This document shows positions 14,463 through 28,874 of a stretch of DNA of 64,000 nucleotides, one piece after another. Numbering within the stretch: position 1 is the first letter of the stretch; every line of letters begins with the position of its first letter. Made by a program: the position numbers and the translations under genes. Source of the DNA: Phaeotremella fagi (lineage: Eukaryota > Basidiomycota > Tremellomycetes > Tremellales > Phaeotremellaceae); the NCBI GenBank assembly GCA_001599715.1, contig BCHU01000005.1, forward strand, positions 496,001 to 560,000. The letters are read 5' to 3'. A model generated the notes under the pieces. That model had not been told where the DNA came from. It searched no databases and saw nothing but the letters and a program-made list of their open reading frames with translations.

Positions 14463-17400
14463 ATGTCAAAGCCACCCTCAGTCTTACCTTCAGTAGCACC
14501 AACTCCAGCTCCTTCATCACCACCACCAACTGAATCCAATTTCTCAGAATTCGATCAAGACGGTTCAGCAAGTGTCATTGACACGAGCTACGATTTCTCA
14601 TGGGATACAAAGGCAGATCCTGGTTCTCTAAATATCGTATCGTGGAAATTCGATGTCAACGCTAGAGCTGAAGACGGGGTTGAGAAGCGTGGATTTAATG
14701 GTAAGTCTCGGTCATCTACTTTAATCGAACTTGGATTGATTTATTTCGATAAAAGCCATCTCGACCGTACTTAATCATCCTACAAGAAAGGCCAATCCTT
14801 TACGATCATCACGTAAACCTCTACCACCCATTTCACAACCTTTACCTGTTCTACCTAAACCTCCACCTGCTAATCACTATGATACATATCTGAAAGCCAT
14901 CACACCACTCTATGAAATTTTTTCCGCTGGTCAATCATCTTCCATCGCATCCATTTCCGGTGAATACGAACCCACTTCACAAACAAAAACTAAAACGGAT
15001 TTACCTGAATTATCATCTATACCCGATTTATTCTTCGATCCAAATTTCAATTTATCAAATCCGTTGACATGGACTGATATTGTCGGTATCTCATCTTCGA
15101 CCTCGGTCATTGACCCTAACATCCAAGAATCACTTTCATCACATTTAGACAATATAGAAAGACATCTCGTCCATGAAATCACTCTTCGATCTACATCATT
15201 CTTCTCAGCTCTTTCCAATTTACAAGATCTCCATGCAGAGTCTTCCCTCTGTTTATCTAGAATATCGGAATTACAAAATTCATTGAAGGAAGTTGGTAGT
15301 AAACAGGCTAAAAAAGGTTTGGAGATTATCGATGCTCAAGAGAAATTGAGGGTTTTGAGAGTAACTGAGAATGGAATTCAGAAGATAGCGGAATTAGAGG
15401 AACTTGTTAGATTTGGTAGAAATCTCGTGGAAGCGGGTGACTGGACTGGTGGAATAGGTTGTTTAGAGGATGTTGTCAGATGGTGGGAAAGATATGGGAT
15501 TGAAGAGCCCTCAACAGATGGACAGGAAGCGTTGACGTCAAGTTCCAATACCCTCCCCTTATCCACTTTACCCGCTCTTGCAATTTTACCTACAACTCTT
15601 CAATCTTTGACTTCAACCATTTCAACCCAATTAGAATCTGCTTTATCCCTCTTATTGATATCTGTTATCTCCAAAGATCAATCAGTGGATTTATTCGACA
15701 ACGATGAATTTAAAAGATCGGTGGAACCGATATTGGCTGGATTGGTGAGATGTGGAAGGACTGAGAGTGTGGAGGATGTTTGGCGAAATGCAGTAACCCT
15801 CTCCATAAGAGAGGGATCTCGACAGGTAAGTGTGTCCTATCTTCGGTAAACTATTAGCTGACTAAATTGATTAGCATCTTCCAGTGTCACAAGGAGACGA
15901 TGATGGAGATGAAAGTAACAAGGGAATGTCAAATCGAGGGTTGGTTAGATGGTTTCTCCTCGTACTAACCCCATCGTAGTCAAAATCTTGCTCAGGCTCT
16001 ACAGGCAATGGATCATTCCAGTTTCCTTTCGCTCACAAAACGCATGTACGAAACCATGATAGCACGGATCAAACTAGCTCAAAAGATGGGCGATAACCTG
16101 TCGGAAGTGGTGATAGCTGTTAGGTGAGCTAATTTTTTTTTGGCTTGAAAAATTGTAGCTGACAAAAATTTTAGCTCCTTACCGATTCTTTCCATTTCGT
16201 CTTTTATTCCCGATACAACGACACCCCCACCATCCGCCAAGTCCCCCACACCTCCATCAACCGATTACTCCGATATTATATCTTCAGCGTGCGAATTGGC
16301 GAATTCAAGATCATCCAAGATTTTGGCTGTTCGATCCGAACAAAACGCTGCTTTGAACTTGGAAGAGTTTGTTGAACTTTTCAAAGAAAGTTGGGAATTC
16401 GTCGTTACAACCGAAGGATTGGCTAAACGGATGATAGTATCTCTACGAGGTGTTACGGCTTCACAGGTATGTTGTTTGGGATTCTTGGTGATCTTCTCTG
16501 ACATTTGATATAGGCTAGAGCTTTCCTTGTTTCCTATCACGCAGTTCGACTCACAAAATCAGCAAAACAAGTAGAGGACGAGCTATGGACACAGATCGAT
16601 ATACCCAAATCCACCCAGCACGTCGTTGACCTAATCATCCAATCGGCGGTATCAGATCCTGAAGAATGTAAAGTCCCCCCACCTCAAGAAACTATCACCA
16701 ACGGAGATAGCGCTAGTGCCAGACCTCTATCGAAAATTCTTTCCATCGAAGATAGGTCATTCTTCGTTGTCAAAGCCACTGCAGAGAGTTTGGAGTTATT
16801 GGGTGATTATCTTAAAATCGTCGTTAATCTTGAATTGGTGACTACGGACGTTATGGCTAGGATCATCGAGTTCTTGAAGGTCAGTCCGATCGTGGATTCA
16901 TTGAACTTTGCTGATTTGATATTCCAGTCATTCAATTCAAGGACTTGTCAAGTAGTTTTAGGAGCTGGTGCTATGAGATCAGCGGGTTTGAAGAATATCA
17001 CTGCTAAGCATCTTGGTAAATTCTTTTTAACTATCTTTGCACACAGTCAGAGTGGCTGACAAGACAACAGCTCTGGCATCTCAATCTTTATCTGTAATAG
17101 TCAACCTAATACCTTACATCCGTGAATTCATCCGAAGACACCTCAACGCGAAACAAGCAGTTATGCTGATAGAATTCGATAAATTGAAAAGGGTATGTTG
17201 GTTACACTGTAGAATTGGTTGATGGCCGCTGACAATCGAACAGGATTATCAAGAACATCAGAATGAAATTCATTCTAAGCTTGTGGCTATCATGTCAGAC
17301 CGTTTGGCTGTACATTGTTCAGCGTTACGTGTAGGTGTTCATCATGTTTTCCTGAACATTCACTGAACCTGTTTTCCACGTCTAGGCTATTGACTGGGAA

Positions 17401-18541
17401 GCCACACCTGAACGTGATTCTGCTCGACCATATGCGGAGATGCTTGTTAAGGAGACTGCAACTCTTCATAAGGTCTTATCTAAATATCTTGCTAGTCAGA
17501 CGGTTGAGGTGAGCTACGTGCCCAGTACGTTTGCGTCACCAAGCTTACTAGACTTTTAGGATGTCATGTCCCAAGTTCTTGCTGCGATAGTTCATCGGCT
17601 TAGCGAAGAATATCGTAAAATCGAGATTAAATCGGAAGATGCCAAGAAGAGGTACGTTGCAAGTAGAGAAGAACATGATACTAACCCTACGAAGGATGTT
17701 GCAAGATGTTGCCCTTTTATCAAACAGACTCACGCCTCTATCGGAATCAGGAAAAACAGTCTCATCATTAGAAACTCTAGTTAAAGATAAATCAACACCT
17801 CGAAAACCGTTGACGCAAACCATGTCTGGGTTATTACGACGGACTGGATCTACTAGTGTTTCTAAGGAGGAGGTTAAGGATGGGGCTGATGAAGTTGGAG
17901 CTGAGGATGATCTTACGGGTGATGGAATTGAGGCTGATGGTGAAGGAGAGAATGAAGGGTTAGGATTGGGATTAGGTTTGGTTGAAGGGACCGCAGACAA
18001 CGTTCCTCGAGTGGTCGTTGAGAACGCCGAACCGACAAATGGAGTTGTCGAGGACGTTCCAAAAGAAAATACAGATGAGATCAAAACGACTGAAGAGAAA
18101 TCAAAACTCGTCGTCAACAATCTCGAATTACCAGATCGACATCGATCCCTACCGCCCACGCCTATTATTGACATTTCATCACCCGACATTACATCTCCAG
18201 TAATCGATTTATCTCCAAGAGTCGTCTCCCCGAATGTCGAGATGCCAATTGAGACTCTTGACCAATTGATTGAACAGGTGACTGAGGGAGTGGAAGTTAA
18301 ACCGGTCGATGAAGATCCTGTGGCCGTTTTGGAAACGGAAACGGAAAAGACTGAGACTAAAGTCGAAGTGCCTAAAGCTGAACAGGAGGAGGCGGCAGAG
18401 AAACTAGATGTTGTTTCAGAGGAGATTAAAGAGAATGGAATGACGGATCCGAAAACAATCGAAAACGAAAAACCTTTGCCCTCTACCGAAGAAACAGAAG
18501 CCAAAGAAACAGAGATACCAGGGAAGGAAGATACCGAATGA
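14463..18541 (+). CDS. VPS54: VPS54, GARP tethering complex subunit
   Basis: Subunit of the Golgi-associated retrograde protein (GARP) complex, which tethers endosome-derived vesicles at the trans-Golgi. A Pro/Ser-rich N-terminus is followed by the Vps54_N region: AISTVLNHPTR, NHYDTYLKAITPLYEIF, then the helical HLDNIERHLVHEIT, FFSALSNLQDLHAESS and LQNSLKEVGSKQ typical of CATCHR proteins. Later exons give SFLSLTKRMYETMIARIK and SLRGVTASQARAFLVSYH, and the C-terminal Vps54 domain shows VVKATAESLELLGDYLKIVVN, GAGAMRSAGLKNITAKHL and LASQSLSVIVNLIPYIREFI. After about 17850 a long tail rich in Glu, Lys, Thr and Pro extends for over 200 codons to KEDTE and is not part of the conserved fold. A large antisense frame over this tail is a shadow. 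At least ten introns are needed. Confidence 0.9.
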
Positions 18542-18600
18542 TACATACCTTGTAAGAAAAGCTTGAATTAGATCATACAATATGAACATGTGTAGAATAT

Positions 18601-21600
18601 CTATATCTCTCTCTTTTGACCAATACGACCAACAGGCAATGGTTCTACTGGAAAACACTTTCTCCAAGCTTCAAAAACCTTTTGTTCGGGTTTATCATTC
18701 CTCTCCCACCATTCAAAAATGGTTTTATGGATTGAACCAAAGACTGCTCTCGAGACATTCACGTTGACCATGTTACCCAATTGACCGTCTTGCTAATTGA
18801 TTTTTGGGTCTATCAGTTGCAGTCCTACGACAGAAGTGGAGCAGTCACTGACCTCCTGAGGATTCCCTGATAGATGATAAGAATCTGGAAATCCTGAAAA
18901 TCGTTTCCTTTCGGCGATTGTCATCGTTCGTCTTTGCTATTAAGAAATCCGAACTTCAGTGACTACGTCAAATACTGAGAGTAAAAGCTCACGTCATAAT
19001 GAATAACCCCAGTACTTTTCCCACCTGGTTTCGAAGATGTTAACAGAGTCGTGGCACCACCCTCAGGATCGATTCGTCGTTTGCAACCTACATGTGTACA
19101 GAGTTGTCAATTACAGAGCAAGCGAATAAATGCCATCTTACCAGGAACAGAAGAACCTTTTTCACCAACTACTGGGATCTCTTTCATATCTCTCGTAGCG
19201 AAAATAATCTCCATCTCACCAGGTGTTGCGTACGGTGTATAATGATCGAAAACAGATTTCCGACCTTCCCGAAGTTGTTTTTGGTAATCGTTCTGAGCTT
19301 CTCTATGGTATCTAACTGATTTTGAAAATCCAATTCTGGTTTGATCGCCAGTCTCACCCTTTAGAGGTGGAAATGATAGTAGTCGATCTCTAGGTAGATA
19401 GGAGATATCGTTTCTGATGATACTGTAAGCTCGCTTTGAGAAGACGACACCACGACACTTACGGTCTAAAATGGAACCCTGGAAGATCAGAGATTGCATC
19501 AGACACTGTAACAGCTGGAAGAGGTCCTGAACCCGGTGTCCCAATCCCAGGATAGAATGTCACTTCTGAATCCCCAAACAATTGAAATCGAGCGAGTTGG
19601 ACTTTAGGATTAGAATGTGTAGGTAAAGGAAATTCCGGAAGTCGAACACCGATTTTAGCAGCCAGCACGAATAATCGAATCCGATTTTGAGGACTTCCAT
19701 AAGCTCGACTATCTAAAAGAGCTAATCGACATTGATATCCCCGTTGAAGCAATTCCTTTATCAGCTGTTGTGAGTAGTTCCTGATGAAGGCTTTGTCGAT
19801 CTCTTCTTCACTCAACTCCCTTTTGAAACCGGGTACGTTCTCGAACACGAAGAATGAAGGCTGAAGTCGATCTAGTTCCCTGAGAGCTACGAATAATTCG
19901 TTGTTTCTTGAATCGTCGGCAACACCTCTCATATGGTTTGCTCCAGAATGACCTTGACATGGTGGACAAGCTGAATAGACCATGATATCTCCACGACGGG
20001 GGAGGTATGTCTGATGTCTCTGTCGGGGATTCTTTAGAGCTTGATGAACCTTTTTATCGAGTTTTCGAGCAGTATCCGACGCTTGGTTCAATTTTGACAG
20101 GATACAGTTGGTGTTTGGATGATTGTTTTCGACGGTGTTCAGACCAATCGGATCTAAGTCCAAAGCATACTTCATCTCGAAATGATCAGAAGCTCCAGTA
20201 ACCAGACCACCGCCTCCAGAATAAGAATCTGCAGCAGGCATCTTTTCTTCTAGTTTTCCAAAAGCAGACAAAGCAAGTTGATGATTGAGACTTTTGGTTC
20301 GACATAATCGACAGGTTTGAAATTGTCTTTGAATAGGAATGAGGTTCCCTGTTTGATCCAGCTGTGAAGTGCAGTAGTATTCTCCAGAATATCTTGCATC
20401 TGCTTGGGACAAAGCGACGTGGCATTTACCGATCAGCTGATTGACTGAGATATTTTTAAGCTCCTCAGAACGATAGATCTGACGCTGTATCAAATTCAGC
20501 CAAAGTCACTAACCCCCCTCACCTCGGATAAAAAGCCCTCCCCTAATCTCCCTCTTCTTCTCAGGTCAGTGACCCGTCCAAACATCCTAACAGTGACCAT
20601 TGTCTCCTTAGCCAAACCAAGAGGTTTAGGTAGAACCTGAATCTGACCTATCCCCCAGGCTTCAACTCTACCCTGATCAACATAAACGAAATCATGTAGA
20701 TGGAAATTCATTCCTTTGTATCTGAATCCGAACCCCACTTTCAGCTGTTTTATCGATTCACTCCTCATTTTCCTACTGTCACACGAATCACAGCTGGAGG
20801 AAAGCAGTGGATCTCTGAAAGTGGCATTCGATTTATCCGCCACGAATCGACAGAATGGTAATAATTCTGGAATAGGTTGATTAGGTTTCACCATGATCAG
20901 ATCGAATTTGTTTTGGATGGAATGGAGACTGATATCATCGCATTGGCAATGATCAAGAAAGTATTCTTTTGGTCTTCCGATATCAGGTACTTCACAGAGC
21001 CATTGAACGTGGCATCGTTTTTTACCTTCTTGGTTGAAAAAGATTGATCGAATTAGACCGATTTTATTAGATTCGTTATTGGAGATATTTATGACCACTG
21101 CGTCGTCGACCATGACTTTCTGTTTGTGGTTAAACTGATGTTCCCGGAAATACGCTTCGGATAGTTGAACCTTGCCCATGGTTGTTTGATCTACCGTCTC
21201 CATCGGACATTCGAGTTTGAGATTTAGATCTTCAACGTCGTCCTGCGATTCCTGAATAGATTCTGGAGTTGTTTCGATACTATCCCAAATATTCTTGTGA
21301 CTTTTCATTATCCTTCGAAGATGCTCTCTTCGAGATCCTTTAGGTAATTCCTGAACCTTCCTCAATTTCTCGAACAGAGGTGACCTGCTGATATAGGATA
21401 TTCGGTCATGTATCTTGACATCGTCGAGGTCATGTAATACCGAGGCTAAAATCTCAGAACCATACTCTCGAAATTTTGATAGAGAAGTGTCGAGCTATTG
21501 TCATCCAATGAGCTTGAACACGCAATTAAACACCCACATGTCGTATCAAATCACCCTGAGTAACTCCTTGAAGCTCTTTCAAAAATTCCCGTAAACTCTC

Positions 21601-22756
21601 ACAACACTCTGAACTGGCTTTACAAATCTGTGCAATTAATTGATAAGGGATCTTGAAATTATCAAAGGTTTCTCGGTAGCACGCCAGAGGATTTTGAAGT
21701 ATGTAAGAACAATCCGGTGTTTTTAATCTGATTTGACTGAAAACGATTCCTCAGTTTGAGTCAATCAAACTTCGAGTAAGGGGAAACGACTTACACATTG
21801 AAATCAGAATCAGAGGATATCTCGTAACCGTCCAATTCCCCAAGCAACTCTCCTTTCCCAACAATCTTGATAACATCCTCAACCCTCCCTTTCCCTTTCT
21901 TATCAAGATTCCTCACAAACCCAAAAGCCCAAATACTTTCGGTAACCTCGTTTCTCTCCCCACCATCCATTCTCCCATCTTCATAATCAAATACCCCAAG
22001 CGAATAGAGTGGTCCAGGCATATCATCTCCGAATTCATTCTTTACCCTTTGGAAAATCACGAAATTTTCTAGAATCATCTTATGGCCTTCGGGATAGGTT
22101 GATTCGTCGTGATTAGAGGTTTGAGGGGGGATTTTGAAAGTTAGTCTTTCGTCTGGAGTTCGCTTAGTCTCATCTTCCATTGACTGAGGTTGACTTACGA
22201 CGAAATGTTTCTGTGTTGGGTCGAGGAAATTCTTTGGAGAGAATCATATCTTCTGGTGTACGGAAATATCTTTTCTTGTTTGGTTTCGAATTGGAAGACT
22301 GATGCTTATCGTCAGCGCAATCATGTAAATCATCTGATTGATACTTACATTCATAGTTCTCTTCCTACCCCCTGAATGAACACCACCTACCACTACTCTA
22401 GAAGTAGAACCAGCTCCAGTATCATTCTCGTCAACAACAATTCCCGTTGAACTGGTGAGCAAGATATCCGCTGCTTTGTGTATATCACCCCCAGCTCTCC
22501 TAATAGCCTCATCAATTTCAACTGATTCCTTCTGTCAGCGTAACATCAACGTGAAAGGATTCCATCCATACCTTTCGAAGTCGCTTCGAAGATCTTGAAC
22601 AGCTCTGTCTTCTCCTTTACGTGCATTGTATCTACTTTGAGATGTATTTGATTACAGTACTTATACGTAAAAGGTAGAGAAGAACGTTGAAGGGTGTTGC
22701 TTGACTACACCACCCAACGCTCTTGACAACAGACCGTCGATCAAAAGTATCTTCAT
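18601..22756 (-). CDS. DNA (cytosine-5) methyltransferase with two BAH domains (DNMT1/Dim-2 class, DnmtX-like)
   Basis: Nuclear enzyme predicted to methylate cytosine C5. The catalytic domain has all key motifs: I DSYSGGGGLVTGASD, IV SACPPCQGHS with the catalytic cysteine, VI FENVPGF, VIII SPQNRIRLFV, IX ERKRFSGFPDSYHLSGN, and X QLGNMVNVNVSRAV near the end. Upstream are two BAH-like domains: about 21220-20800 (VMVDDAVVINI, GLIRSIFFNQEG, EYFLDHCQC) and about 20760-20400 (LHDFVYV, WGIGQIQVL, VRMFGRVTDL, IYRSEELKNIS). A region near 22160-21500 (MILENFVIF, LYSLGVFDYED) resembles a replication-foci (RFTS) domain. No SNF2 or RING region follows, so it is not DNMT5. From memory, Kwoniella species carry a de novo enzyme DnmtX that Cryptococcus lost; identity is inferred. 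The 5' exons are uncertain: the best model starts at 22756. The gene converges on VPS54 with 59 bases between stop codons. Confidence 0.92.
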
Positions 22757-22910
22757 AAAAAGGTATAAAAACTGAGTAAATGCAATTATTACAAACGGAC
22801 CAACATAGAACGATTTACAAACTTCATAATACCTTCCTCATCATCATCATTGAAACCAGCTCATGATACGCCAATCGAAATGTCCATATCCATATTCATA
22901 ACCGACCCAC

Positions 22911-25900
22911 TCATCGTAAAGGAGAAGTCTCAGGATCAAGTTGACTCAACAACTGTCTCAAGATCTGGACGTCCTCCGTGAAAGGCGCACCATTCGAACT
23001 TGGGACTAAACGTCCTGAATTAGCTTGTGGATCTTCCATCGCTAGCCATCTGGTAAAGTAGGTGAGTTGAAGTCGATTTTTCCATCCAGGAAAGCACAAG
23101 TAACTCACCGATCAATCTGTGATCTAAGGGATTTAGCCTTTAATCTGAAATGTGAATAAACGGCTTGTTCAACTAAACCCCGAATCAGTATTTCGTTACC
23201 AGTCCAATATCGATCATTCAACTCACATGGGAAAGGCGTTTTCCCATCACCGCCATTCTCCAAATCCTTCAATCTCTCATACAAGAATTCCTTCTCTTCA
23301 CGTTCATCTTCAATTTGTTGCCTCAAACCGTTAATCTCGTTTTCGAGTGTCCGAATCCTTTTAGTAGATTGTAGATCGATTGAAGGGGATCCTGAACCCA
23401 TTGAACCAGAATATGAATGTCCATGTCCATTAGATAAAGACGCGTTATGTCTACGTGAAGGTGTCAACGGTGTTGGTGATTGGGTATTTGTCGATGCTTC
23501 TGATAATTTCTTGATCTGATCAGACATGTCTCTACCAAGTGCGTCGTGAGATTGTTGAAGACCACGTAAGATATCAGCACGAGATCCAGTGGTAGCAGGT
23601 GAAACGATATCATTTTTCGCAAGTGTTCGTTGAAGTTCCGAGATCTCTCCTCTCAATCGATTATTCTGACCTAAAACACTTTCATGAACCTGTTCCAATC
23701 TACTCAATTCATCTCTAGTCTTGGCGTATTTGGTTTCAAGAGAATTGGTGTTGATTCGATTAGGTGAAGGAGCGAAATTAGCTTTCGACAATTGTTTCCT
23801 TGAATCCTGTAAATCTTTTTCCAAAGATGATACCCGATCCTCAGCAATTTGTCGACGTCGCCTCTCTTCCTCCAGAAGTGTCGCTGAATCTTTATCCTCA
23901 TTCGACATAGACGCTCGAGCCGTTCTAGCTTCCTTTGATTTAGAAGCTTTCAGAACGTCACGTTCACGCATCGCGTCCTCTAAATCTCCTTGTAAACGAT
24001 GTTTCTGAGCTTCCAGTCCTTTAAGCACATTATTCAATCGACTGTTCTCTCGAACTTGTTCAACCAATTGTCGATCCGTGACCTTCTTGGCCGATTCCAA
24101 TACATGAACATGTTCGACGATAGTTTTATTCTCCCTCGATCTTAATAAAGCGATTTCAGCGTCTCTAGATTTGATATCACCAGCGGCTTTAGCTAATTCT
24201 CTCTCAGCTTTCAAAGCGTTGTTTCGATGGGACGCAAGTTCAGCTTGACCATCATGAACCAATTGTTCGAAATGTTGTCGACGTTGGGTTTCTTGTTGAA
24301 GTTGATGTGATGTACTTTCCATTCTTTTCGCCCAATCAGCCTTTTCATTTTCAATGACTAAAACGGCGTCTTCTAAATCAATGAAACGGTCGTTGGCATC
24401 TTGTAATTCTTGTTCGAGATTCTATACTGATCAGCTTGGTTCCATATTTCTGCACTTACATCCCGAGCTTGAATCGTCCCTTTCAAAGCTTGCTCAGAAG
24501 AACGTAACTGTTCCCTAACCCCGGCCAACTCAGTTTCCAACTTTCGTTTACCCTGTTCAACCTCTTGAGCAGCGTTACTAGCAGCAAGCAAAGATTTCTC
24601 TTTATCCGCCAAAGATCCTTTAACAGCCGTCAATTCTCTTTCAGCAGCCGAATAACTTTGTTTCAAACCTTCAACATCGACTCGTAATTTGTTAGCGAGT
24701 GATAGAGAGTTTTCACGCTGTTCATCCAAAGCTCTTTGAAGTTGATTCACTTGGGTACGTAAACCTGCCATTTCAGTTTCACGAGATTGATCAACTTGAC
24801 GTCGTTTGGTATCCTCCGATGTTTTAGCTGCCATGAGTTGTCTCAATTCATCTAAATCTTTTTCGAGTTTCGAACGAGCACTGAGATCTTGTTGACGTTC
24901 TTTATCCCTTGTCAACATCTCTTGCGTCAAAGCGTCGATTCGAACTTGTAACGAAGATTTCGCTTTTTCGTTCTCGGCATGAACCTTGTCACTGGCGGTT
25001 CGAGCTGATTCGAGTGAGGAGATATCTTTTTCCCTACTTGAAATAGTATATTCATGTCTCTTGATTTGAGCTTGAGCTTCGTCGTACTGATCCTTGAATC
25101 GACGTAAATCCTCGTTCAAGGCTGATAATTGAGAATTACCAGATTCACTAAAAAATCAGTTTTGACGCTCAAATCTAAAACTCACGCTTTGCCTTTCTCC
25201 AACTGTAACCTTTTCTCCAACTCCGCAACGTTCATTTCAGCTCTTTCTTTAGCCCGTCTCATCCCATCCTCTTTAACCCCAACATCTCTCTTCAAACCTT
25301 CAACCTGTCTAACAAGATCCAAACGTTCCGAATCCAATTTAGACAATTTAGTCGACTGGTCCTTGGTCTCCTTGAGAAGTTCAGCCTCCCGTTTCCGCCA
25401 AGATACACCTTCCTTCTCAAGCATCGCAGCTTGTTCGACCAACTGTTCGTATTCATGTTGAACTTGATTTAATCGTTCTTGAGCTGCCGTAGCAGCTGCG
25501 ACCGCCTCTTCACGTTCTCCATCAAGTAGATCTAAATCACCTTCGAGTTCGATGATCTTTTCCAACAATTCAGCTTCCTTAGCTTTACTTCTTTCAAGAA
25601 TAGCGTCCTTCTCTCTACCAAGTTGTTGTTCAGCGGTCAAATCCAATTCAACCTTATTCTTTTCAGCTAGCAAAGTTGCTTTAACCTCCTCCAATCGAGT
25701 TTTTTCTGCTTGATCCCTCTCAGCTCTTTCTTTAGCCATAGCCAATTCAGCCTGTTTTTTGACCAATTCATCGTCTGATCTAGTGGCGGCGAGTAAAGGT
25801 CGAACTTTAACGTAGAGAGACCACCAAGGCCAATCCCTCAAAGCGATATAAACCCGAGCATTACGCTGAATAGTCTTGATAGCTTGAGATCGATTGATAA

Positions 25901-28874
25901 GTTTGTTGATCCTTCGACGAGCGATATACATTCTAGCAGAAGCTTGGAAACGTCTAAACATATCCGTCAGAAGATTGTCACGTCTCTCTTCCAATTCTGC
26001 CAGTATACCAGCTTTAAAGAAGATTTTGGTCGCTCCGATTTTGTAGAAATCTTTATCCAAATCAAGAGCTTCAGCGATTTTAGCTGCTGCTTTACGGCCA
26101 TCCATGTATCCCTTTGGGATAACACCCGGAGTCAAAACTTCGTAACGGCTTCTGAATTCAGCAAAAGAATGTCTATTTGGATAACCTAGACGAGCGATTC
26201 TGATACCCTCTAGAACACCGTTACATCGAAGTTGATCCAGTACCAGGTTAACTTCAACTTTACCTGGTTTCTTGATGGAGTTGGGAACGATACATCGAAC
26301 GAAATGAGGTTGGGTGGAAGAAAGCTGTTGCATAAGCTGTCCAAGTTGTTCTTTGTGACGTTGGCCGACTGTTCTGAAAGCACCTCTTTTGACCTTCTTC
26401 ACGACTCCAGTGTTGGCAGTGTCTTCAGCATAATCAACAAACAAACTTGCTACAGCAGGAATCTCTGACGTAGCCAATAATCGAGCAACAGCGTCATTGA
26501 TTGGATCTTTGTTCTTTTCCAACCATCCCGTGGTCTTATATTCGACATCGCCAGCATAATGCTTAACAATGAAACCTTGACCGAAGCGAGTTGATTTGAA
26601 TTTGGATGAACCTTGATGAGTTGGACTGGCACCTTTTGGTGTTTCCCATAGTGCCTCGACCTTTTCGGTGAACGTTAAATCAGTTGCTCGAGGCATGATA
26701 CATTCTTCGTCGAGACATGAAAGGATACCGATTGGCATTGATGATTCGATAAGCTCGATCGTCGGTTGAAGATCCAATCCAAAGTTGACGTAATCCCATT
26801 CGATACCTTCACGAGCGTACTCTTCTTGCTCAAGGGTGAACATGTGGAAGTTGAAGAACTGTAGGTTAGCATGTCATTTCGAGTCGATTGCTTACTTGTT
26901 GCTATATGGGGCGTCAGGTATGTCTAGATTGTAGGAAACGAGCTTACCAGTTTTTCATTCGTAAAATTGATCAACAACTGTTCGTAACTATTCTCAACTG
27001 GACAAATATCAGAAATCATATACGTATACCAACATACCAAAAATTTCAAACCCAGCAATATCCAAAACTCCAATCGACAACCTACACAGTAGATTAGTTC
27101 CTTCCACCATGATGAGGGATTAACCTACGCTTTCGGACTAGGTCTATCAATAGCTTTATTGATTCTATCCACCAAATTCCCAAAAGTCTTTTCATAAAGG
27201 TATTTACACAACGCCGCCAGTTCATCCTCAGCCTGTTTCTTACTTCGAGCCTGAGTAACCCATTCACGTCCAGCTTTAACTTTAGGTCTCAAAACGGCCT
27301 TTGTGAATTCCCCAACATCTATGCCTAACAGATGACAAATCTTCTCAGCGACTGATTGAGATGTTGGTGGTAGGAAAGCTTGATCTGATCTATCACCTGT
27401 TAGAACGAGGTTACCGATTTGTAGGATTATCGCTGGTATACGGAACAACTCTATTTGTTCTGGTTGGTTGAAGCCTACTACTTCCAGAGCTGATTTCAGG
27501 ATTCTCCATTCGGCTAGGTCATCAACTCCATCGATTTGTAACCTTGTCTTCTTCAAGAAATCATAGCTCCCAGCATCCCCGTCAAGTAACAAGGGACCTG
27601 AAGGTGTTATTTTCCCCTCTCACACTTCAAACTCCAAAACTTACCACTAAGACCAGCTTCTTTGGCACCCTTCAATAACTGATAGAAAACATGAAAACTC
27701 CTCTCCCCTTCAGCTCTCGCCGTCACTCTACTTTTCTCCAAGAGATACCAATCAATATTAGCTCCAGCAATAGCCCCAGTTGGTGAAAAGAAGATTCTAA
27801 TGAATTTACCAAATCTACTTGAATTGTTGTTTCTTGCCGTCTGTGCATTTCCGAAGGCTTCCAAAATGGGATTGGCTTGTAGGATCTGTTGTTCAAGTAA
27901 TCCTAAAGATGGATTTGATGTCGATGGACCACCGATCTCTTCAGCATCTTTACCTTTGAAACTTGATGATCTGGGAAGACCTGTTGATGGTGCTGTAGAC
28001 ATTGAACCCGAACGTGTAAGAGAGGATGAGGGTTCATTGGCAGTCGTTGCGATAGCCGCTAGATACTGAATGACTTTCTTGGTGTTTTCAGTTTTACCTG
28101 CACCAGATTCACCGCTTTGAAGAAGTTAGCTAAAAACTGATGTTTCTGTGAGGTTGACCTACGTGATAAGGATACTCTGACTCTCTCTCTCGTCACCAAT
28201 CTGCTGCCAAGCTCTTTCTGCTATTGCGAATATATGGGGTGGATTCTCTTCCCTCCTCTTGGTTCTATATTGAGCGACGATGTTTGGTGTATATATAGGT
28301 AATTGGGTATAAGGGTTGAGTGATATCAAGAAAAGTCCTGAATAGGTCTAGAAGATGTGTCAATAGCTGATAAATGGTCTAAATATTAGCTACCTACATA
28401 GATTTGTCCACTGCCATATCTCATCCTCAGATCATTCACTACACTAGCTTCATTAAGATGAGTTAATTCTGCAATATCCTCAACACCATCGAATTGAGGT
28501 GGATTCATGGGCGATAACATGTACAGGGGAAGTTTCCGTATCTCTCCAGTAGTAGTTACTACCACTTCTGCTATCGTTTCTGTCGAGTTATCATCTCCTG
28601 ATTGTGATTTGATCCAACCAGGTAAAAATCCTTCATCCTTGTCGGGAATCCACATTCGTCTGTTTGGGAATGGTGTGTGGGATGATGAATGATCGCAAAG
28701 ACGGGTAGGTGAAGGAGATTTAAATTTGATAAAATGGGTTAGACAGTTCTTGGTCAATATAATTTTCGTCAATGGGACATCAGAGACTTACCGTTTCTCG
28801 TTGAACTCTGCTTGCGCAGCTGCGTTGATGGTAGCATCTTTGTTTGTACGTCCCAGTAGTTTAGTGGGATCCAT
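22911..28874 (-). CDS. conventional myosin (class II) heavy chain
   Basis: Actin motor of the cytokinetic ring, comparable to budding yeast Myo1 and fission yeast Myo2. The N-terminus is [20 protein letters not shown], followed by [14 protein letters not shown] (SH3-like). The motor shows the P-loop [14 protein letters not shown] near 28100, the switch I stretch [21 protein letters not shown] with [16 protein letters not shown], and [20 protein letters not shown] (converter side). After [21 protein letters not shown] comes [14 protein letters not shown], diagnostic of class II just after the light-chain site. The rest, from about 25800 to 22911, is a long coiled-coil tail of EELKKR-type heptads with a Ser-rich break near 23420-23500. 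At least nine introns. It ends DPETSPLR. The promoter is shared with DHH1. Confidence 0.94.

Follow-up and report, generated by a model that had tools for sequence, protein, structure and literature searches.

A probable DnmtX-type cytosine-5 DNA methyltransferase gene, intact and accompanied by DNMT5 in the same tremellomycete genome

The 64,000-nucleotide stretch analysed here (the window; positions 496,001 to 560,000 of contig BCHU01000005.1) carries on its minus strand, at 18601-22626, an intact gene for a cytosine-5 DNA methyltransferase that is probably of the DnmtX type. Frames were read on this strand over 18401-22950 and joined into a spliced model of 11 exons, which encodes 1181 residues followed by a stop. 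The spliced product contains no internal stops and no frameshift, a kind of break whose possible presence had been raised in an earlier note on this DNA, and all 10 introns are of the GT-AG class and 36-58 bp long. The coding sequence starts at the ATG at 22626 and its stop ends at 18601. The earlier note had placed the stop at the same position and the start at 22756, which is 130 bases too far upstream; the frame that opens with the ATG at 22756 soon hits a stop, and a by-eye search found no in-frame splice joining it to the rest of the gene. Domain matches described below cross the junctions of exons 1/2 (UBA-like), 4/5 (RFD), 6/7 (second BAH), and 7 to 11 (catalytic), which supports the splicing model. 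No second copy was found in a protein search of the gene's own genome, which scores best candidates only, all 9 matches at E ≤ 1 being the gene's own exons. The idea of a decaying or silent copy is extremely improbable, given exons that stay open over 1181 residues, conserved catalytic motifs, canonical introns, and no degenerate duplicate among these matches.

The catalytic domain, with motifs I-X, covers residues 705-1140 (18727-20229, on the minus strand like all coordinates given for this gene). Pfam DNA_methylase matched the whole protein with 102.7 bits (E 3.4e-29; best stretch, residues 769-1140), and patterns placed DSYSGGGG at residue 705, PPCQG at 793, ENV at 834, QNRIR at 885, RTMTIAERKRFSGFPDSY at 1085 (motif IX), and QLGN at 1122, which bears out the full in-frame catalytic domain described in the earlier note. 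With the motif numbers that we take to apply to this gene, motifs VIII and IX are 193 residues apart. Exon 7 (19463-20484), assigned from the spliced model, Pfam on pieces, and a homolog search, holds the end of the second BAH domain and motifs I-VIII. Exon 8 (19142-19413) holds the target recognition region between motifs VIII and IX, exon 10 (18829-18936) motif IX, and exon 11 (18601-18792) motif X and the stop, all three read from the spliced model and motif patterns; exon 9 (18993-19087) comes from the spliced model. The best sequence matches in the PDB were DNMT1 chains (E 1.1e-27 and weaker, up to 99.6 bits); we take 5guv to be mouse DNMT1, 9ped to be plant MET1, and 9bap and 9baq, which scored 77.5 and 78.1 bits, to be Neurospora DIM-2. 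In NCBIfam, exon 7 matched dcm with 66.8 bits, below the cut-off of 100.65, and exon 6 had no match. We rejected RID/Masc1 as an identity for the gene, as the protein has ENV at 834 and not EQT or EET, a 193-residue span from motif VIII to motif IX, and BAH domains; what it shares with RID/Masc1 is membership in the cytosine methyltransferase family. Those enzymes are described with EQT or EET in motif VI and a target recognition domain of about 80 residues (PMC6709928).

Ahead of the catalytic domain, exon 6 (20523-21494; spliced model and Pfam on pieces) encodes a linker, a first BAH domain, and the first part of a second one. Pfam BAH matched the whole protein with 38.6 bits (E 1.1e-9) in two stretches, above the cut-off of 30.8. 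BAH1 (residues about 421-523; 20811-21119) reached 26.6 bits (E 6.1e-6) with exon 6 alone and is singly below that cut-off, and BAH2 (residues 559-644; 20410-20705) is the stronger of the two BAH stretches in the whole-protein search. These matches make the paired BAH domains, already noticed in the earlier note, a well supported prediction. No homolog of the BAH exon was found at E ≤ 0.001 among 2276 candidates, and a PDB search with the linker and BAH region gave three DNMT1 chains only, over BAH2 (E 1.3).

Exons 4 (21795-22152) and 5 (21538-21736), modelled by splicing and Pfam on pieces, encode the first and second parts of a putative RFTS-like region. Pfam DNMT1-RFD matched residues 212-285 (21568-21847) with 15.4 bits (E 0.019) when residues 106-345 were searched and gave 12.2 bits (E 0.18) with the whole protein, for a cut-off of 22. 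In shuffles of the region, RFD appeared in 0 of 9 and other Pfam families in 2 of 9 (E 0.034-0.083), so that the E of 0.019 is meaningful only as a test of a single expected family. Thus, the RFTS-like region of the earlier note is weakly borne out: the match falls ahead of BAH1, where RFTS is expected, and its score stays below the cut-off. Pfam RFD searched over the gene's own genome gave no match, this gene included, a result that does not show absence.

At the N-terminus, encoded by exon 1 (22572-22626), exon 2 (22349-22521), and exon 3 (22199-22298), all from the spliced model, we find a candidate UBA-like domain that the earlier note did not contain. PF24767 matched residues 9-41 (22454-22602) with 22.5 bits (E 1e-4) when residues 1-80 were searched and with E 0.0039 in the whole protein, both below its cut-off of 27. 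Two observations speak against a UBA domain: HTH_8 competes for residues 15-39 (15.6 bits, E 0.014), and one of five shuffled versions of residues 1-80 was matched by PF24767 as well (14 bits, E 0.047). We consider the UBA-like N-terminus a prediction of moderate strength. PDB searches with the N-terminal 397 residues and the N-terminal 56 residues each gave one chain, an actophorin chain (E 0.083) and a chain named Gp53 (E 1.5), both judged to be chance, and no UBA chain; a match of UPF0561 to the whole protein (E 0.097) was likewise taken as chance. By pattern only, residues 71-86 (end of exon 2 and exon 3) form a basic stretch resembling a bipartite nuclear localization signal. Single-sequence structure predictions were too poor to inform on these regions (mean predicted local distance difference test score 34.5 for exon 6 and 41.9 for most of exon 4).

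For the whole protein, the Pfam list at E ≤ 10, which is filtered so that few matches above about 0.1 remain, contained no zf-CXXC, chromodomain, RING, or SNF2. The earlier note had also read the gene as being without SNF2 and RING parts, and this domain content rules out DNMT5 as the identity of the window gene. A separate DNMT5 gene, whose presence in the genome the earlier note had proposed to check, lies elsewhere, on C13 (in our numbering, used for the loci below). PF00145 searched over the genome at E ≤ 10 matched two places only, the window gene and an exon of this second gene (C13:426606-426764; E 0.028, a weak match), which leaves the window gene as the only candidate found that is not DNMT5. 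The DNMT5 locus consists of open reading frames from about 428.7 to 420.7 kb, with a chromodomain (E 8.8e-6), a helicase C domain (E 9.2e-8), an SNF2 exon (E 1.6e-10), a RING-like piece below the cut-off (E 0.015), and the strings GTSCVDYSN and ENVC. Its 770-residue open reading frame matched PDB chain 7r76 with 1225 bits and 532 of 761 residues identical; this chain was deposited as 'DNA repair protein Rad8', and we take it to be DNMT5 of Cryptococcus neoformans. Rad8 and DNMT5 are likely the same protein (PMC7862722). The genome therefore encodes both types of enzyme.

To place the window protein among its relatives, we used homologs of exon 7 and of the full-length protein. With exon 7 as the query, 2375 candidates yielded 42 proteins at E ≤ 0.001, led by environmental fragments, and the full-length search gave 2 matches at E ≤ 0.001 among 7991 candidates scored. 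The closest fragments share 42% identity over 86% of the exon 7 query (P0003), 48-53% over 44-49% (P0004-P0010), and 71% over 27% (P0011). In the alignment, the window protein and P0004-P0008 have QGH(S/T)GANH in common, where P0003 has QAFTGAN and P0009, P0010, and P0011 begin downstream; ENVPG(F/I/M)KR is common to the window protein and P0003-P0010, and GS(P/T)QNR(I/V/L)RLF to the window protein and P0003-P0011. A first tree had 48 rows, made from 43 of the 44 fetched proteins with P0002 omitted and P0001 split in two. In it, the window protein and P0003-P0011 formed a clade (99/100) that grouped with DNMT1/MET1, CMT, and P0012 (100/97) to the exclusion of the remaining 33 rows. The second tree (24 rows; 21 of the 44 fetched proteins, leaving out ZMET2, P0011, and other long or partial rows) recovered the clade without P0011 (100/100), with bootstrap values of 83-85 at the deeper surrounding forks. 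Long branches were flagged for P0011 in the first tree and for P0013, which meets the window clade, in the second.

The trees bear on the possibility that the gene encodes a divergent fungal DNMT1-type maintenance enzyme, in which RFTS and the paired BAH domains would serve to copy hemimethylated CpG with the help of an SRA-domain (UHRF1-like) protein of the same genome. The catalytic motifs, the weakly matched RFTS-like region, and the two BAH domains do follow the DNMT1/MET1 layout, the best PDB matches are DNMT1 chains, an SRA-domain match is present at C9:726779-727162 (79.9 bits, with weaker exons up to 727461, minus strand), and P0004-P0007 are named 'DNA (cytosine-5)-methyltransferase 1' by their source. 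However, the two animal and plant DNMT1/MET1 rows fall outside the window clade in both trees, which contain no named fungal DNMT1. The protein also differs from DNMT1 and plant MET1 by its UBA-like N-terminus and by the lack of a zf-CXXC finger among the Pfam matches (plant MET1 is without one as well), and a PIP-like motif was not found by one pattern. Moreover, DNMT5 is already there for maintenance, and a de novo mode of action has been reported for DnmtX (PMC7862722). We consider the maintenance enzyme unlikely. An approximately unbiased test of the window protein, DNMT1, and MET1 as one clade (p = 8.6e-113, second tree) is driven chiefly by the tie between the window protein and the environmental rows and carries little information on deeper relations.

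A further alternative is that the gene is a basidiomycete survivor of DIM-2, a de novo enzyme guided by heterochromatin, activated by HP1, and reading H3K9 methylation through RFTS and BAH1. The resemblance includes the presumed de novo role and a domain order identical to that of DIM-2 (RFTS, BAH1, BAH2, MTase; PMC11315935), and the genome has an HP1 candidate, with chromo (C8:1395207-1395266) and chromoshadow (C8:1395511-1395681) matches on the plus strand about 0.25 kb apart. In the PDB comparison given above, however, the presumed DIM-2 chains score below the best DNMT1 chains. The pattern P.V.[LIMV] has two matches only, at 912 and 942, both in the catalytic part, so that the N-terminal part is without a PxVxL-like pattern, and Dim-2 is held to have been lost in Basidiomycota (PMC7862722, a review). 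Together, these points make survival of DIM-2 highly unlikely.

We consider it very probable that the gene is orthologous to DnmtX and belongs to a tremellomycete yeast of the Kwoniella type, its product being a C5-cytosine DNA methyltransferase that acts in the nucleus and falls in the DNMT1-like group of eukaryotic enzymes. The DnmtX reading fits because the layout matches the published description: in Kwoniella, DnmtX is shorter than DNMT5 and combines a BAH domain with the catalytic domain of a DNMT (PMC11185503). The likeness to Kwoniella DnmtX (gene DMTX; K. mangroviensis XP_019001759, PMC10538959) consists of the BAH and DNMT domains, the lack of SNF2, and a co-resident DNMT5. All Kwoniella species studied have both Dnmt5 and DnmtX, and DnmtX was lost in Cryptococcus and in Bullera alba (PMC11185503); it is counted among the orphan DNMTs (PMC10538959). 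The genome size of 22.6 Mb is within the 18.1-26.0 Mb published for Kwoniella.

Several points weigh against this assignment. The name DnmtX derives from the architecture, the presence of DNMT5, and the literature, and the gene was set against DnmtX by description only; neither tree had a named DnmtX, DIM-2, RID, or fungal DNMT1 row. The source name of P0004-P0007 is that of DNMT1, and the 70% identity of the DNMT5 protein to the Cryptococcus enzyme indicates kinship, not genus. Kwoniella introns are described as longer than those of Cryptococcus (PMC11185503), whereas the introns here are short, a comparison that covers the ten introns of this gene. Apart from these points, two descriptions of Kwoniella DnmtX name a BAH and a DNMT domain (PMC11185503, PMC7862722), whereas we read two BAH domains, an RFTS-like region, and a UBA-like domain.

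Expression of the gene, a nuclear location of its product, recruitment to chromatin, and de novo activity are all predictions. The N-terminal readers (RFTS-like, BAH1, and perhaps UBA-like) would guide the enzyme to transposons and other repeats whose chromatin is marked. There, the catalytic domain would flip out a cytosine, which the PCQ cysteine would attack with assistance from the ENV glutamate, as expected from family membership (also PMC6709928), so that previously unmodified DNA would acquire 5-methylcytosine. After replication, DNMT5 from its separate locus would copy the mark. De novo action is proposed because moving DnmtX into a C. neoformans dnmt5 mutant led to 5-methylcytosine (PMC7862722, a review). 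Recruitment to histone marks by RFTS and BAH1 is suggested by analogy with DIM-2 and DNMT1 (PMC11315935), and a role for the UBA-like domain by analogy with DRM2.

A bolder and rather doubtful extension is that DnmtX is a UBA-RFTS-BAH-BAH-MTase and not a minimal BAH-DNMT, with N-terminal modules that recognize histone H3 carrying ubiquitin (and H3K9 methylation); a ubiquitin signal would then license de novo methylation in this lineage. If true, such an enzyme would be a fungal parallel to plant DRM2 on a DNMT1-like body. DRM2 is not known to have RFTS or BAH, and its catalytic domain is permuted. What it would have in common with the protein studied here is that a de novo cytosine methyltransferase is preceded by a UBA-type domain; DRM2 has three such domains, which are required in vivo for a reason described as unknown (PMC7617993). 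Neither RFTS nor UBA is mentioned for DnmtX in the excerpts of the published descriptions, and the primary description of DnmtX may already report them. A search for literature joining DNA methyltransferase, UBA domain, RFTS, and BAH gave plant work only.

As DnmtX, the gene has most likely been described before, and its importance was overrated in the earlier note, as DnmtX had been published for all Kwoniella studied (PMC11185503). In the published account, loss of DnmtX left Cryptococcus with CpG methylation that is inherited and no longer established. Because Cryptococcus lost DnmtX, an intact copy alongside DNMT5 provides a natural comparison for that loss. What the present analysis contributes is the complete exon structure and a pair of BAH domains, preceded by what may be modules for reading ubiquitin and histones; this last hint is testable and relevant to the targeting of fungal de novo enzymes of the DnmtX type. 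A further contribution is a set of environmental catalytic fragments that fall in its clade at 42-53% identity (71% in one short stretch), suggesting that the type may extend past close relatives; DnmtX-type enzymes may occur beyond Kwoniella, or the clade may include what the source calls DNMT1.

We also noted further features of the genome. A zf-4CXXC_R1 (CDCA7-like) match is located at C13:795458-795714 on the plus strand (best piece, 29.5 bits), and K. mangroviensis has a class II zf-4CXXC_R1 protein (PMC10538959). Only one rve integrase match was obtained in the 22.6 Mb (C10:356622-356834, plus strand), such counts being lower bounds; elements that carry an integrase seem scarce here, which agrees with reports of a low transposon load in Kwoniella (PMC11185503). 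The CpG ratio was 0.835 in the window, 0.854 in the gene, and 1.009 at the single integrase locus, with no depletion, one locus being too few to serve as a methylation footprint.

Within the window, the methyltransferase gene lies between a weak Vps54_N match at 15064-15849 on the plus strand (E 0.0017, below the cut-off) and a clear myosin head match at 25182-26843 on the minus strand (E 3.7e-87), in line with the VPS54 and myosin II flanks named in the earlier note. Adjoining the gene, a 332-codon open reading frame at 17548-18546 (minus strand) runs antisense over a 300-codon acidic one at 17639-18541 (plus strand), and the former is probably a by-product of codon composition.

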